This document shows positions 2,177-11,955 of a DNA stretch of 64,000 nt, piece after piece. How positions within the stretch are numbered: the stretch's first letter is position 1; every line of letters starts with the position of its first letter. This DNA comes from Propioniciclava flava (GTDB lineage Bacteria > Actinomycetota > Actinomycetes > Propionibacteriales > Propionibacteriaceae), in contig NZ_PPCV01000005.1 in assembly GCF_004126535.1 (NCBI RefSeq), forward strand, positions 124,001-188,000, written 5' to 3'. The translations under genes and the position numbers were made by a program. The notes under the pieces were generated by a model. It searched no databases. It was not told the DNA's origin and was given only the letters and a program-made list of their open reading frames with translations.

Positions 2177-3115
2177 ATGCGCTTGTTCTTGGTGAGACAC
2201 GGACAGACCCCCGCCAACGTCGATCGGCTTTTGGATACGGCCAGTCCTGGCGCCGATCTTGATCCTTCTGGGCGCGAGCAGGCGCAAACCCTGGTCGAGC
2301 GGTTCGCCGGAGTGCCGATCGAGGCCCTCTACACCTCCGATCGGGTCCGGGCCCAGCAGACGGCCGCACCGCTGGCCGCCGAGCGAGGGCTGACGCCCAC
2401 CGTCCTGCCTGGGCTCGGGGAGATCGCCGCCGGGGATCAAGAACTGTGGCCCCGATGGGACGCCTACATCGCGATGCTGTCACAGTGGGCGATGGGCGAT
2501 CTGACGGCTTCGCGGCCGGGCGGAGAGTCGGGTGAGGAGTTCCTGTCCCGCTTCGACGCGGCCATTGTCGCGATCGCACGTGACGGTTCCGCATCAGCGG
2601 CCTTGGTGAGCCATGGGGCCGCGCTGCGCATGTGGATCGGGGCACGCGTCCAGGGCATCGCCCCCCGCGACATCGCGACCTGGCATCTGGGCAATACCGC
2701 CGTGATCGAAGTCGACGGCGATCCCGATCACGGCTGGCAGTTCGTGTCGTGGGATCCGGGCACGGAACTGGATGACGGGCCGCACGCCCATGCGCCGCGG
2801 GGCGAGGCCGGGAGTTTCGTGCTGGATCCCGACGAGGCGAGCGCTGCGGCACCCGAATGGCGTGTGCTCGGGGGAGCGCTGCGGATGACGACGCGTTGGC
2901 GCGACGCCTCGGCAGCGTGGCGCTTCGTGGCACTCGTGGGGGAGTTGTCCGTCGCCCTGGAGCATCCGATCGACGTCGATGTACGCGCAACGCGCGTCAT
3001 GGTGGCCCTGACGAGCCCCGATGCGGGCGGCATCACGCATCGCGATACGGCCTTGGCATTCCAGATCAGCGAGGCGTTGCGTCGCGAGGGTGGGATCGTC
3101 GAGGTGCCCGCCTAG
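2177..3115 (+). CDS. Histidine phosphatase fused to a pterin-dehydratase-like domain
   Basis: Residues 1 to about 200 are a histidine-phosphatase (phosphoglycerate-mutase superfamily) domain. RHG is at 7-9, and a second catalytic histidine is in VSHGAALR. Residues 228-312 resemble pterin-4a-carbinolamine dehydratase: a W at 228, EHP at 262-264, then TSPDAGG and ITHRDTALA. In authentic dehydratases the corresponding motifs are HHP and a His in THD/THE. Two of the three usual histidines are therefore replaced here, and dehydratase activity is doubtful. The gene stops at a TAG that lies inside the CCTAGG target duplication of the adjoining insertion element. A possible third-domain remnant lies past the element in the same frame. 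The fusion is clear from the sequence; the substrate is unknown. Confidence 0.85.
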   Translation: MRLFLVRHGQTPANVDRLLDTASPGADLDPSGREQAQTLVERFAGVPIEALYTSDRVRAQQTAAPLAAERGLTPTVLPGLGEIAAGDQELWPRWDAYIAMLSQWAMGDLTASRPGGESGEEFLSRFDAAIVAIARDGSASAALVSHGAALRMWIGARVQGIAPRDIATWHLGNTAVIEVDGDPDHGWQFVSWDPGTELDDGPHAHAPRGEAGSFVLDPDEASAAAPEWRVLGGALRMTTRWRDASAAWRFVALVGELSVALEHPIDVDVRATRVMVALTSPDAGGITHRDTALAFQISEALRREGGIVEVPA

Positions 3116-3116
3116 G
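3111..3116. repeat. Target site duplication CCTAGG, left copy
   Basis: CCTAGG flanks the left inverted repeat, and an identical hexamer flanks the right one at 5013-5018. IS481-type elements are known to prefer NCTAGN targets. The TAG inside this copy is the stop codon of the phosphatase gene. Confidence 0.75.
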
Positions 3117-3136
3117 TGTACTGACCGGAGACGTTG
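3117..3136 (+). repeat. Left terminal inverted repeat of the IS
   Basis: Starts TGTACTGA. It matches the reverse complement of 4993-5012 at 17 of 20 positions, with mismatches at positions 9, 13 and 14. Confidence 0.8.
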
Positions 3137-3160
3137 GTAGAGCGACTCTCTCTGGGAGCG

Positions 3161-3187
3161 TTGACCTTGACACTGTGTGATGCGGTC
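3161..3187 (+). promoter_or_regulatory. Candidate MerR operator/promoter
   Basis: Just inside the left IS end lie TTGACC (3161) and a perfect TTGACA (3167). They are embedded in a GACC...GGTC dyad whose centre is ACACTGTGT. MerR-family regulators bind such dyads between promoter elements, and autoregulation would be expected. No clear -10 box follows, so the exact promoter is uncertain. Confidence 0.4.
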
Positions 3188-3201
3188 TGGTGGGGGTCGA
3201 C

Positions 3202-3966
3202 ATGTTGAGTATCGGAGAGATCGCGCATAGCACTGGTGTCTCGCGGCGCATGCTGCGGCACTGGGAAGGCGAGGGGTTGCTGACCCCAGCTACTACCGAC
3301 CCTGTAACCGGCTATCGGCGCTACCAGGACAGCCAGCTTGGGCGCGTGCGTGCCATTGCGGAACTGCGCGCGCTGGGGTTCGGCTTGGCCGAGATCGGGC
3401 AGCTGCTCGATCCGCATCTTGAGCAGTCCACTCTGGAAGTGCTTCTCACTCACCAGGTAGACGCCCTGCAGCGGCAGATCACCGAGGCTTCAACACGTCT
3501 GGTCCACGTTCAGCACCGGCTGGACATCATCCAGAGCAAGTCCATGGAGATCATCATGAATCTGTCCATCACCGCACTGCCCAGCCTCAATATTTGGGGG
3601 CTGAGCACCACCGTCCTTGACGAGACCGAGATCGGTCACGCCGTCAAACAGTTGCACCGGGACCTCCCTCACACCGATGAAGAGATCGTGCTTCTGTATG
3701 ACGGTACGGACGACGACCAGATCACCGTCTCAGCCGGGATTACGACGCGCCCCGAATCTGAGGCGGTCAGCAGGATCGTCGTGCCGGAGGCCTCGGAAGG
3801 CGTAACGGTCACCTTCGATGGACCGCCAGAGAGCATCGGGGATGCCTGGGTCCTGATCGATGCCGAGCTAGAGAAGCGACACCTGACCAGTTTCGGCATC
3901 TATCGGCAGGTCAACAGCGTGACGGGACACGTCACCCTGCAGGCCCCTGTTCGCGAGCGACACTGA
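3202..3966 (+). CDS. MerR-family regulator with GyrI-like effector domain (IS passenger)
   Basis: Protein of 254 residues. The N-terminal winged helix-turn-helix (about 1-70) carries SIGEIAHSTGVSRRMLRHWE and GYRRY, typical of MerR proteins. A coiled-coil dimerisation helix follows, then a C-terminal GyrI/BmrR-like ligand-binding domain (about 115-250). An in-frame GTG at 3190 exists, but the ATG at 3202 has GGTGGGGG at proper spacing and is preferred. The gene lies between the inverted repeats of an IS481-type element. No transporter or enzyme target travels with it, so its regulon is unknown; it may respond to a hydrophobic or cationic compound as BmrR relatives do. Confidence 0.85.
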   Translation: MLSIGEIAHSTGVSRRMLRHWEGEGLLTPATTDPVTGYRRYQDSQLGRVRAIAELRALGFGLAEIGQLLDPHLEQSTLEVLLTHQVDALQRQITEASTRLVHVQHRLDIIQSKSMEIIMNLSITALPSLNIWGLSTTVLDETEIGHAVKQLHRDLPHTDEEIVLLYDGTDDDQITVSAGITTRPESEAVSRIVVPEASEGVTVTFDGPPESIGDAWVLIDAELEKRHLTSFGIYRQVNSVTGHVTLQAPVRERH

Positions 3967-4117
3967 TTTGCGGACCACAGCAAGGGAGGCCAGCGGCGAC
4001 GTCGAGCCCCCGCCTGGAGGTGTGTCTCAATGAAGCCATGCGAATGCGGCTCTCACCCCGCGCCACAGACTGATAGTTGCCCGGCTGGTTGTCGACCAGG
4101 GGTGGCGGATCAGTGAA

Positions 4118-5017
4118 GTGGCGGCCCGCTTTCAAGTGTCCTGGCCGACAGTTAAGCGCTGGGTCGATCGATACCTCGCCGGCGAATCGATGCAGGATCG
4201 CTCCTCGCGGCCACGGAGGTCTCCTGGCAAGACGTCCAAGACCGTGACTAAGAGGTGCGTCAGCCTACGAATGCGTCTGCGGGAAGGTCCGGTCCAGCTC
4301 GCTGCGAGACTCAACATCGCGCCGTCGACGGTTCATCGAATCTTGCGATCAGCCCGCTTGAACCGACTCTCTCATGTCGACCGCGAAACAGGTGAGCCCG
4401 TCCGCCGCTACGAGCACGATCATCCGGGATCAATGGTGCACGTAGACGTGAAGAAGCTCGGCAACATCCCCGACGGTGGCGGCTGGCGTTACGTTGGTCG
4501 CCACCAAGGCGAGAAGAACCGCGCCGCGACGCAGGACAAGTCACGCAACGTCTATGGCAATCCGAAGCTCGGATATGCATTCGTGCATGCCGTCATCGAT
4601 GACCATTCCAGAGTCGCCTACACCGAGGTCCACGACGACGAGACCGCCTTCACCGCTGTCGCTGTCCTGCGTCGGGCCGTTGATTGGTTCGCCGACCGCG
4701 GCGTCGCGATCGAGCGAGTGCTTTCAGACAACGGTGGTGCGTACCGATCGCACCTCTGGCGCGACACCTGCGAAGCACTGTCGATCACCCCGAAGCGGAC
4801 TCGTCCGTACCGGCCGCAGACCAACGGGAAGGTCGAGAGGTTCCACCGCACCATGGCCGACGGGTGGGCCTACGCCCGCTGCTACATCAGCGAGCAGGAA
4901 CGCCGCGACTCTCTCGAAGCCTGGCTCCACCAATACAACCAGCATCGTCCCCACACGGCCTGCGGCAACCAGCCGCCCTTCTCACGATTGATCAACGTTC
5001 CCGATCAGTACACCTAG
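4118..5017 (+). CDS. IS481-family DDE transposase, probably N-terminally frameshifted
   Basis: The catalytic core is intact: a helix-turn-helix (FQVSWPTVKRW), then the DDE residues in HVDVKK, LSDNGGAY and GKVERFH. Coding potential in this frame extends upstream of the GTG at 4118 back to about 4034, encoding SHANAALTPRHR, the usual N-terminus of this family. A GGAGG (4016-4020) and an ATG (4030) sit in front of that segment, but one extra A after the ATG puts it out of frame. The natural start therefore appears lost, and any product would begin at 4118 or arise by slippage. The stop TAG (5015-5017) belongs to the duplicated target CCTAGG. Confidence 0.85.
   Translation: MAARFQVSWPTVKRWVDRYLAGESMQDRSSRPRRSPGKTSKTVTKRCVSLRMRLREGPVQLAARLNIAPSTVHRILRSARLNRLSHVDRETGEPVRRYEHDHPGSMVHVDVKKLGNIPDGGGWRYVGRHQGEKNRAATQDKSRNVYGNPKLGYAFVHAVIDDHSRVAYTEVHDDETAFTAVAVLRRAVDWFADRGVAIERVLSDNGGAYRSHLWRDTCEALSITPKRTRPYRPQTNGKVERFHRTMADGWAYARCYISEQERRDSLEAWLHQYNQHRPHTACGNQPPFSRLINVPDQYT
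4993..5012 (-). repeat. Right terminal inverted repeat of the IS
   Basis: The reverse complement starts TGTACTGA and matches the left end (3117-3136) at 17 of 20 positions. It encodes the last residues of the transposase. Confidence 0.8.
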
Positions 5018-5018
5018 G
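5013..5018. repeat. Target site duplication CCTAGG, right copy
   Basis: Identical to 3111-3116. Its TAG serves as the transposase stop codon. Confidence 0.75.
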
Positions 5019-5218
5019 CGACGGTCGAGATCGCCATCGACACCACTCGCCCCGAGTCGCTGCGTCCCGTCGGACGGGTTGGCGATGGGACGAAGGTAAG
5101 CGATCGCGTCACGGATCTCCTTGCGTTGGCCCCGGGATCGGGGGAGCGTCCGGAAAGCGGAACTCCTCCGTCAGGGGCTCATCCCGGCGGGATGGCGCAT
5201 GACGGAGGAGCCGCGTGA
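5018..5218 (+). pseudogene. Coding remnant after the IS, possibly a lost VOC-like domain
   Basis: Directly after the right target copy, a 67-codon open stretch continues in the frame the phosphatase gene would have if the element were removed. It begins ATVEIAIDTTRPESLRP and ends at a TGA at 5216. No start codon or ribosome-binding site serves it. In actinobacterial pterin-dehydratase-like proteins a glyoxalase/VOC-type domain often follows and opens with a similar VEIAID segment. This may therefore be the eroded continuation of the gene cut at 3115. After about 20 codons the likeness fades. The assignment is inference. Confidence 0.45.
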
Positions 5219-5234
5219 TGCTCGACCGAGTCGA

Positions 5235-6107
5235 TCAGCTCTCGCTGCGTCGACGCCTGACCATCAGCAAAACGCCCGCACCCACGTTCAGTGCCCCGAT
5301 CGTGGCATACGTCCACAAAGCCGTCGGCCCTGTGAAGGGAAGGGTCCCACCCGGCTCGTCGGGTGTCCGGGAGTTCTCCACGGCACCGAAGTCACCAGCC
5401 AGATGCGTGGCATCGATCACGACCGTGCGGGGGGTCGTGTCGCGGACGAACCCCGCGGGGGCCTCCTTCTCGGTCAGCGTGTACGTGCCCCAGGCCACAT
5501 TCTTGATCGCGAACCCTCCATCGGCCGCGTTGGCGTCGATGCCCAGGTTGTCGCTGACAGTGACCGAGTAGCCGTGGGGCCCCTCCAGCGTCCACGTGGA
5601 TCCGGCGAGGCGATCACCGGAGGTGGCGTCCGTCTTCTGCCACGACAACGTGCCCGGCGCACGCGTGTTCCCGATCGCTCCCAAGTCCTGCTCGAGGTGC
5701 TCGCCGTCGAACGTGAGCGTGCGAACCGGAGTGGGGTTGGGCAGTTGGTATCCCGCCGGGGCGGTGTGCTCCCACAGCTTGTACTCGCCCCACTTCACGC
5801 CGATGTTCACGCGGAACTTGCCGACGGCCGGATCGAGGTCGTAGGTACCGTTATCGATCACCTCGCGGGTCAAGCCGTCGCCTTGAAGCGCCCAGACGCT
5901 TCCCGCCAGAGGGGTGCCGTCGGTCGCGTCGGTCTTCTGCCAGGAGAGCGTGGCTTCGCGGCGGTCGTTGAAGATGTCGGGCGAGCCGATGGCATCGGTT
6001 CTGCTCGTGTGGTCGACCCCAGTCGCCACCGACACAACGTGGTCTCTGGAAACTGAACCGACCGGAGCCGGTGGCGCGCGGTCGCGCCCCCGGCCGCATG
6101 CTAGCAA
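5235..6107 (-). pseudogene. 5'-truncated LPXTG surface protein with Cna-B repeats
   Basis: The C-terminal part of a Gram-positive wall-anchored protein is present: two Cna-B/SpaA-type repeats, each opening with TLSWQKTDAT and ending in an E-x-x-APAG-F/Y motif. They are followed by a proline-rich joint, the sortase motif LPFTG, one hydrophobic segment and an RRRR tail. The front is missing. The first ~45 residues show no signal peptide and have a skewed, non-natural composition, and an IFNDRRE piece just before the first full repeat looks like the end of an earlier repeat. No sortase gene is nearby. The region next to it holds the IS and another remnant. I read it as a deletion-truncated adhesin or pilin gene that is unlikely to be exported. 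Confidence 0.75.
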
Positions 6108-9685: not shown

Positions 9686-10672
9686 TCACAGACCTGCCTC
9701 GTCCAGCACGTGCGCTGTGGTCTCTTGGCCGATCGCGATTAGTTCGGCGGCGCGATGGAAGTCGAAGGTCGAAGCCATCTCCTGGCTGAACTCAATGAGG
9801 GTGTCGGGCGGGCTCGCGGCCAGCCGGAACCGGGTGATGAGCGCTTCGGCCGTCTCCAACGACAACGACACCACATCGCCGAGCTTCAACCCCTTGGGAA
9901 GGTCGTCAAAATCGAAGTCGGGGGTGCGTTCGGAGGCAGGCGCATCGCTGAGGCTCGGCTCTAGTGCGCGCGAGGACTCGGCGGGGAAGAAGCGCTCGGT
10001 CCGCCACTCGCGCCAGGTGCGGACAGGTCCGCTGTCGAGTACCCCGCGACGGAACCAGCCCGAGAGTTCGCCCATGAACCCCTCATTGGAGGCCGTTTCG
10101 GTGACTGGCCGCCCCGTTAGGCTGCCAGCGCGGCGTCCGGCCAGGCTCACGGCGATGGTGCGATCTGCGGGGACCCCGTGCAGCGGATCGACGGGGACAG
10201 GGTTGAGGAGTCCGCCGTCAGCCAGCAGGCGCCCATCGACCATCACGGGGGTGAAGACGCTCGGGATGCCGATGGAGGCGCGAATCGCCGTGGCAACGGA
10301 GCCTCGCTGGAACCACACTTCACGCCTGTTGGTGAGGTCGGTCGCCACGGCGGTGAAGGCGACGGGGAGATTCTCGATCTGGGCGCCGTCAAGGATGTCG
10401 GCGACCCGCGTCATGACGCGCTGCCCCCAAAACACCCCAGGGCCGGTGAGGGTAGGGTCCAGCAGCATCAAGACATCGCGCTGAGTCAGGCCACTGACCC
10501 AATCGGCGTAGTCGGAAAGCCGTCCAGCAGCCTCCAAGCCTCCGACGAGGGCACCCATGGACGTACCCGCGATCGCGACCACCTCATGGCCACGGGCATG
10601 CAATTCCTGGATGACACCGATGTGGGCATAGCCACGGGCTCCGCCGGAGCCAAGAGAGAGGGCGATCCGCAT
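9686..10672 (-). CDS. Patatin-like phospholipase / RssA-type esterase
   Basis: Serine hydrolase of the patatin family, 328 residues. The oxyanion-hole glycine-rich loop is in LGSGGARG (residues 7-14), the nucleophile elbow is GTSMG near residue 37, and the catalytic Asp is in ADGGLLNP. The catalytic dyad is therefore complete. No signal peptide is visible, so it is probably cytoplasmic like RssA/YchK relatives, acting on lipids or acyl esters. Its substrate is unknown. The C-terminal ~100 residues are less conserved and acidic. TATCCT sits 7 nt before the ATG. Confidence 0.88.
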   Translation of the reverse strand: MRIALSLGSGGARGYAHIGVIQELHARGHEVVAIAGTSMGALVGGLEAAGRLSDYADWVSGLTQRDVLMLLDPTLTGPGVFWGQRVMTRVADILDGAQIENLPVAFTAVATDLTNRREVWFQRGSVATAIRASIGIPSVFTPVMVDGRLLADGGLLNPVPVDPLHGVPADRTIAVSLAGRRAGSLTGRPVTETASNEGFMGELSGWFRRGVLDSGPVRTWREWRTERFFPAESSRALEPSLSDAPASERTPDFDFDDLPKGLKLGDVVSLSLETAEALITRFRLAASPPDTLIEFSQEMASTFDFHRAAELIAIGQETTAHVLDEAGL

Positions 10673-10679
10673 GGGAGCC

Positions 10680-10685
10680 AGGATA
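10680..10685 (-). promoter_or_regulatory. -10 box TATCCT for the patatin-like gene
   Basis: TATCCT on the minus strand, 7 nt before the ATG at 10672. It is a candidate leaderless promoter. Confidence 0.5.
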
Positions 10686-10698
10686 GGCGGGGCCCCGC

Positions 10699-11955
<1,257 letters not shown>

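Follow-up and report, generated by a model that had tools for sequence, protein, structure and literature searches.

Does a regulatory gene that lies beside a transposase gene belong to the mobile element, and does it control that element or serve only as cargo? The question is raised by a locus of Propioniciclava flava in which a gene encoding a MerR-type regulator precedes a transposase gene of the IS481 family of insertion sequences (ISs). We examined this locus within a stretch of 64,000 nucleotides (contig NZ_PPCV01000005.1, positions 124,001–188,000), designated here the window; coordinates without a locus name refer to it. We consider it very probable that positions 3111–5018 correspond to a mobile IS481-family copy with a lone BmrR-type MerR gene (merR) as passenger, in which merR serves as cargo and probably doubles as the first gene of an operon with the transposase gene (tnp). 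Sequence comparisons establish the unit, its past mobility, and the transposase clade to which it belongs. An operon of merR and tnp under MerR's own control is likely, while ligand-gated transposition is a possibility.

Boundaries and gene content of the element

The complete element spans 3117–5012 (1,896 bp) and contains an intact merR together with an IS481-type transposase gene. Its terminal repeats agree at 17 of 20 positions and CCTAGG lies outside each, as the sequence-only reading of this DNA had proposed. The window holds 421 pairs of CTAG sites more than 500 bp apart; the runner-up inward pair agrees at only 13 of 20 positions, which excludes a chance pairing of the repeats. The duplicated CCTAGG supplies a TAG stop codon both to the upstream phosphatase-like gene and to tnp. 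The features of the element are as follows.

3111–3116, no strand: left CCTAGG target duplication, which supplies the TAG stop codon of the histidine-phosphatase-like gene upstream
3117–3136, plus strand: left inverted repeat, 17/20 against the right repeat and 19–20/20 identical in four other full-length copies
3161–3191, plus strand: candidate merR promoter/operator, TTGACC, 19-bp spacer, TCTGGT (by eye; putative function)
3163–3187, within the candidate promoter/operator: dyad GACC-N4-CAC-N3-GTG-N4-GGTC (by eye)
3202–3966, plus strand: merR, 254 amino acids, BmrR-like (ATG 3202, stop 3966), assigned by MerR_1 match, AlphaFold, and Foldseek
3967–4029, plus strand: 63-bp spacer between merR and tnp, weakly conserved (47–49/63 in the full-length copies L021–L023; 49/63 in L021)
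4030–5017, plus strand: IS481-family transposase gene; present open reading frame (ORF) 4118–5017, GTG start, 299 amino acids, TAG stop in the right duplication
4993–5012, minus strand: right inverted repeat, 17/20 against the left repeat
5013–5018, no strand: right CCTAGG target duplication, containing the transposase TAG stop

Both genes named in the sequence-only reading are present. The regulator is complete, with an intact ORF of 254 residues whose N-terminal winged helix matches the Pfam family MerR_1 (E 1.9e-16). The transposase matches the integrase-core families rve (E 1e-14) and rve_3 (E 7.4e-20), and its plasmid relatives are annotated as IS481 family; its ORF, however, now starts only at the GTG at 4118. 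The window contained no Rfam matches at the gathering threshold.

The element has the terminal repeats and NCTAGN duplications of a subgroup of the IS481 family. At 1,896 bp with merR, it exceeds the approximately 1–1.3 kb, with the transposase alone, that the sequence-only reading gave for ordinary members. This size range is not strict; passenger-carrying IS481 members have already been described (PMC6305408, PMC6794481).

merR travels with the insertion sequence

A scan of genome contigs with the MerR protein identified nine loci, four of which contain the full unit. The copy in Nesterenkonia (L020) is 99.7% identical in DNA sequence to the window element, and those in Brachybacterium sp. 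Z12 (L021), Brevibacterium aurantiacum (L022), and Brachybacterium massiliense (L023) are 88–89% identical. In all four, the same left repeat marks the start and follows a CTAG, and the flanking ORFs differ; the NCTAGN hexamers bordering L021, L022, and L023 are identical on the two sides. The search for further copies with these ends and duplications, which the sequence-only reading had recommended, thus bears out its suggestion that the regulator moves with the IS. Moreover, cassette and tnp identities are 99.8 and 99.7% between the window and L020, and 89.3 and 88.3% between the window and L021. Because merR and the transposase diverge in step, these sequences indicate that merR travels with the IS. 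Past movement of the element is implied by the different flanks of the copies in five genomes.

The same site was compared within the genus. The mdh-phosphatase locus was recovered from 10 of the 12 other genomes, the two without a match being left out of the count. These loci extend approximately 0.4–1.5 kb past the phosphatase gene, and none of the 10 contains merR or the transposase at E 1e-4; merR at this locus without the IS was not seen.

Several observations weigh against continued mobility. L020 has no right CTAG, the transposase ORF of L023 is broken, and, compared with the remaining full-length copies, the start region of the window transposase lies out of frame; a 328-residue ORF is intact in L021 and L022. 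The window copy's transposase may be impaired because its reading frame near the start differs, and these three defects together suggest that several copies may be immobile now. Ratios of nonsynonymous to synonymous substitution (dN/dS) are 0.09 for the transposase against L021 and L022 and 0.29–0.32 for merR against L021–L023; judged from these ratios, merR is under purifying selection.

Less complete relatives were also found. A partial copy in genome G756 (L114, query 1–1139) comprises the first 1,139 bases at 89% identity. Three loci (L024, L025, and L026) contain merR at approximately 79% identity without the transposase. The gene is cut short in L026 and intact in L024 (3989–4765) and L025 (3977–4765), where dN/dS is 0.22–0.35. 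At the left end of L024 and L025, a gapped alignment reveals a possible decayed repeat with an ungapped agreement of only 6/20, and merR was possibly left behind there by decayed elements. L027 and L028 are more distant merR relatives with no IS match. None of the plasmid records covers 80% of the element, and all 305 that match MerR do so at less than 60% identity. Among viral contigs, 15 pattern stretches included no merR relatives.

A transposase clade in which passengers are the rule

Relatives of the element were collected from 391 genomes of the same order, from plasmids, and from the genomes of the named loci. Homology mostly begins at the transposase. In the closest relatives, the left repeat lies 0.9–5 kb further upstream, beyond other genes; in more distant relatives, the left end lies 118–140 bp before the transposase alignment (16/16), as in an ordinary IS. 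Left ends directly before the transposase, an arrangement that the sequence-only reading had singled out as contrary to its view, do exist but only outside the clade of the window element.

In a first tree of 51 transposase rows, a branch with 100/100 support separated 32 scorable passenger rows from 16 ordinary rows. We then added 14 elements, drawn from 47 genomes of the family to which the L021 genome belongs, for which a passenger had been predicted beforehand; all 14 have a passenger and none has a short leader. In the combined tree, genes lie between the left end and the transposase in 46/46 clade elements compared with 0/16 outside, a distribution that requires one change (support 100/100; the bootstrap of this tree had not fully settled). 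The window transposase falls inside this 49-row clade, with genes between its left repeat and the transposase. The sequences examined show that every scorable clade member carries a cassette at this position. Accordingly, the statement that ordinary IS481 elements carry the transposase alone holds for the 16 relatives outside the clade and fails within it.

The counts have to be read with their sampling. Many of the 46 scored rows are near-copies and not independent. Transposase alignments shorter than 850 bases (pieces of L004, L070, L075, and L095; L136, L137, and L145) were excluded from the tree, and three tree rows were left unscored for a passenger owing to a contig end (L072), a record end (L088), or a left repeat that was not found (L094). 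In the order sample, 108/391 genomes match at E 1e-20 or better, and those analyzed are L029–L057, L075 (G030), L072 (G300), and the merR-only locus L074 (G345). A class-wide sample gave matches at 1e-100 in 4/394 genomes and yielded one new hit that covers the transposase in full (L104/L107); the partial hits L105 and L106 were left out. In the L021-family sample, 11/47 genomes match; the 14 new elements have transposase hits of almost full length, and the sample omits L114 and the shorter pieces, two of which lie in G770. Identical hexamers occur on both sides in 32/46 passenger rows and CTAG on both sides in 35/46. For L140 we used the nearer left repeat, whose hexamer is mismatched; another hit 4.7 kb upstream has a matching hexamer. 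For the 14 added elements, the advance prediction also covered identical hexamers, which occur in only 7/14, and a same-strand gene next to the transposase, which occurs in 13/14.

Cassettes pair regulators with other genes

The 46 scored elements represent 22 cassette types, which were assigned from protein scans and plasmid annotation, with near-identical elements placed by similarity or ORF pattern. They are listed below with the number of elements where noted.

Lone MerR, 5 elements
WYL, MFS, and UvrA-like ABC
WYL and RidA, 4 elements
WYL and alpha/beta hydrolase, 2 elements
HxlR, unknown protein, and TfoX_N, 4 elements
ABC ATPase and MFS, 2 elements, no regulator seen
CGNR zinc finger and LysE
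MazE/AbrB-like, ABC, and ABC2, 2 elements
WYL and VOC
DJ-1/AraC, DJ-1, and DUF1348, 3 elements
DUF2268 and MerR-TipAS, 6 elements
ArsR/IclR-like and MFS, 2 elements
HxlR and two MDMPI
AraC and glyoxalase, two kinds, 1 and 4 elements
Rrf2 and NAD-binding
ArsR and permease, ISArsp12 (PMC6305408)
DJ-1/AraC, alcohol dehydrogenase, and SnoaL
TetR, ABC, and ABC2
DUF2938 and XRE-cupin
MarR and glyoxalase
TetR, cupin, and DUF4865

A regulator-like protein is present in 21/22 types, counting the CGNR and MazE/AbrB-like proteins, and in 20/22 a further gene (efflux, detoxification-type, or unknown) accompanies it. The window cassette is the sole type that consists of a regulator only, without an effector. 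The gene next to the transposase points in the same direction as tnp in 21/22 types; the exception, L138, has a divergent gene in this position and thereby counts against a general operon arrangement.

Two AraC-plus-glyoxalase elements contain additional transposase-type ORFs that appear to be inserted. In L107, an IS3-type ORF (3380–4306, by eye) splits the AraC gene, and in L145, an IS481-like transposase ORF (4552–5553) precedes it.

Cassette exchange within the transposase gene

A second clade element, L058, resides in the host genome of the window (contig 19, 192661 and upstream) and carries the HxlR, unknown protein, and TfoX_N cassette. Its relative L101 in Brachybacterium equifaecis JHP9 (G395; transposase 9960–10938) shares a genome with L100. 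The first five 80-column blocks of the L101 transposase are 98–100% identical to L058, and the blocks past the transition are 98–100% identical to L100. With three exceptions, the 184 informative sites follow L058 throughout one block and L100 throughout the other, with the crossover near 10390–10440. The cassettes of L101 and L058 are 99.1% identical compared with 89.8% for their transposases. The hexamers flanking L101 are unequal (ACTAGG and TCTAGA), the outcome that a recombination event joining two resident elements would predict. These alignments show L101 to be a single-crossover hybrid in which recombination inside the transposase gene joined one cassette to the right half of another element. 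The DUF2268 and TipAS cassette occurs in both main subclades (L134 versus L065, L068, and L142–L144), a distribution that fits exchange and could also be old.

The MerR protein resembles multidrug sensors

BmrR, BrlR, and EcmrR are MerR-family regulators that function in multidrug sensing. An AlphaFold model of the window MerR, built from 10 rows, has a mean predicted local distance difference test score (pLDDT) of 73 and a predicted template modeling (TM) score of 0.41. Foldseek returned end-to-end alignments with a Pseudomonas aeruginosa regulator (5xql, E 3.6e-11), BrlR (5xbt, E 1.0e-10), EcmrR (6xl5), and BmrR (3d71). Like BmrR, BrlR, and EcmrR, the modeled protein has a MerR N-terminus followed by what may be a GyrI-like C-terminus; it differs from them in sequence (approximately 17–22% identity) and in that no efflux pump adjoins merR in the window element. 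The order of elements in the modeled C-terminal part, beta-alpha-beta-beta twice, is consistent with a GyrI-like fold, at moderate model confidence. A GyrI-like fold of this part is probable on the model, and because MerR matches BmrR, BrlR, and EcmrR along its whole length, it is probably a multidrug sensor. Three observations count against this assignment: Pfam calls the MerR part only and no GyrI-like domain, pLDDT is about 40–70 beyond residue 110, and the fold matches have overall TM scores of 0.31–0.39 with root-mean-square deviations of 16–18 Å, leaving the domain arrangement unmatched.

A candidate inward promoter and no hairpin before the transposase gene

MerR promoters have a long spacer of 19–20 bp that is overlapped by a dyad. 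The sequences TTGACC (3161–3166) and TCTGGT (3186–3191), which face inward into merR, have this arrangement, and we infer that they form a MerR-type promoter. The stretch 3161–3201 is conserved at 40–41/41 positions in the full-length copies (40/41 against L021–L023) and is the best conserved non-coding stretch of the MerR copies. The sequence TTGACCTTGACACTGTG upstream of merR is almost invariant among relatives whether the IS is present or absent, and T....T is kept in the aligned merR relatives. The TTGACA noted in the sequence-only reading exists at 3167–3172, but the conserved candidate promoter is better read, by eye, as TTGACC-19-TCTGGT. The outward-acting promoter suggested there for the left end has no support, as the sole conserved promoter-like sequence points into merR. 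Weighing against the inward promoter as well, a consensus scan of both strands of 3080–5100 found no sigma-70-type promoter in the element, and the candidate −10 TCTGGT is weak.

The spacer between merR and tnp contains no promoter or terminator matches. None of the five MerR copies folds more stably over the 80 bases leading up to the transposase than shuffled sequence does (z −0.3 to 0.2; 60 mononucleotide shuffles per sequence), whereas a strong hairpin is located just before the transposase in 16/16 ordinary relatives (z −3.9 or lower). An operon of merR and tnp is favored because 3161–3201 is the best conserved stretch, the spacer has no promoter or terminator match, and no hairpin precedes tnp. 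The shared orientation of tnp and its neighbor in 21/22 cassette types also speaks for it.

We propose the following model. MerR would bind the predicted operator dyad at 3163–3187. A lipophilic or cationic ligand filling the GyrI-like pocket would cause MerR to bend the over-long 19-bp spacer, a mode of action known from BmrR. MerR would thereby control its own promoter, and transcripts would extend beyond merR to include tnp, for which no separate conserved promoter is seen.

Certain findings run counter to this operon. A hairpin precedes tnp in 15/32 passenger rows of the first tree (z −3.7 or lower; L058, L064, L066, L070, L071, L089–L092, L098–L101, L103, and L107), the five MerR rows being among the 32, and in 4/14 later rows (z −4.6 or lower; L133, L135, L140, and L145). 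Read-through into tnp is not general in the clade. The survival of merR without a transposase in L024 and L025 also weighs against the operon.

Alternative roles for MerR

The strongest competing explanation, to which we assign slightly less than an even chance, is that MerR is pure cargo, kept for a benefit to the host through host genes in trans or drug sequestration, with no role in transposition. TipAS- and AlbA-type proteins, for example, bind and sequester drugs. The intact, selectively constrained merR genes of L024 and L025 speak for this explanation, as do the merR relatives without an IS beside unrelated genes (L027, L028, and L074, by eye) and the resemblance of other clade cassettes to host-benefit genes. 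So does a two-mismatch operator-like site in the host genome (L097 1501–1517, contig 24), which lies approximately 20 bp before a repeat-containing 231-residue ORF with an msrA-like gene after it (by eye). This site is a possible trans target of the element's MerR or of another MerR, and the element's MerR may regulate host genes in trans. On the other hand, the sole exact match to the 17-base operator motif in the host genome lies within the element itself, and a T....T −10 at a distance of 19 bp is missing from the second site. Moreover, a regulator that brings no effector makes poor cargo, and no second regulator-only type exists among the 22.

Conversely, MerR might serve mainly to switch on transposase expression in response to a drug-like ligand, which we regard as unlikely. 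merR is the sole gene between the promoter and tnp, the spacer has neither a hairpin nor a conserved promoter, and the shared direction of tnp and its neighboring gene across nearly all cassette types accords with such a switch. The hairpins before tnp in many sister elements do not, nor does the persistence of merR without tnp in L024 and L025.

It is rather improbable that the cassette has decayed from an ancestral merR-plus-effector pair. BmrR controls an adjacent efflux pump, and the regulator-plus-partner organization of 20 of the 22 cassette types would fit the loss of an effector here. However, in all five full-length copies only the 63-bp spacer follows merR, which is too short for an effector remnant, and merR relatives outside the IS have no adjoining efflux gene (by eye). 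That merR happens to adjoin an ordinary short IS481, such as the approximately 1.1-kb element in the same genome (L003), can be dismissed, given four copies in other genomes with the same ends around merR, the lack of a left repeat directly before the transposase, and the cassettes of the sister elements.

Returning to the model of a mobile merR-tnp unit, we offer one extension with considerable doubt. In this scenario, an IS481 clade would have swapped its hairpin-guarded transposase leader for exchangeable sensor cassettes, so that a stress-sensing operon would end with tnp; the minimal form would be that of the window, in which a drug-sensing MerR directly precedes tnp and transposition would be inducible by a chemical ligand, and cassettes would be exchanged by recombination within the shared tnp.

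Relation to known elements

Passenger-carrying IS481 elements are already known singly, and the window element is a variant of these. ISArsp12 of Arthrobacter plasmid pA2H1 is an IS481-family element of 2,615 bp with ArsR and a permease and is reported to be 86% identical to ISPfr21 (PMC6305408). It resembles the window element in its repeats (TGTACTGACCGGACACGTTG), its CCTAGA duplication, and the position of its passengers before the transposase (PMC6305408); it differs in cargo and length, the window element having a lone BmrR-type MerR in 1,896 bp. The ISArsp12 transposase (L092) falls inside the clade of the window element. ISPfr21 of Propionibacterium freudenreichii is described as encoding a transposase, a TetR-family factor, and a protein of unknown function (PMC2909200) and as similar to ISArsp12 of the IS481 family (PMC6305408). 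By this description it is, like the window element, an IS with a transposase and a regulator gene, to which a second gene is added (PMC2909200). TnRErm46/ISRe46 of Rhodococcus equi, reported at multiple insertion sites, shares with the window element an IS481-type transposase at the right end, an NCTAGN target, a regulator in its cargo (there together with an effector), and a tnp stop codon derived from the target CTAG (PMC6794481). In contrast to the window element, it has repeats TGTTGCGGGTCATGACGTTG, is 6.9 kb long, and carries six non-transposase genes, erm(46) among them (PMC6794481). IS5564 (IS481 family; a label on plasmid matches) has an IS481-type transposase with 67% DNA identity over approximately 766 bases. 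It is linked with a chloramphenicol-resistance gene.

Neither a lone BmrR-type passenger nor a clade-wide passenger rule was found in the literature searched by titles and beginnings of abstracts, a search that lay outside ISfinder and most subscription journals. Beyond the single published cases, every scorable member of one transposase clade has a passenger, and the clade comprises 22 cassette types and a direct hybrid. Should this hold generally, such elements would constitute a compact, integrase-free platform by which actinobacterial genera and plasmids exchange regulator-plus-detoxification modules. With the lone-MerR form, small-molecule switching of an IS can be tested directly, and the L101 hybrid provides a natural record of how cassettes can be exchanged.

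Target sites and flanking sequence

CTAG occurs 30 times in the window compared with approximately 195 expected from base composition, and the target site of the element is thus rare here. A 58-bp repeat just right of the element (5068–5125) seemed odd; we judged it unrelated and probably a helicase gene fragment. It matches contig 22 of the same genome (112462–112519) and 9/12 other genomes of the genus at 80–88%, and its counterpart L109 resembles, by eye, a UvrD/PcrA-type helicase gene on the opposite strand. By eye, the ORF downstream of the element (5235–6107, minus strand) contains domain repeats and carries an LPFTG-like sorting signal at its C-terminus; it probably encodes a surface protein.

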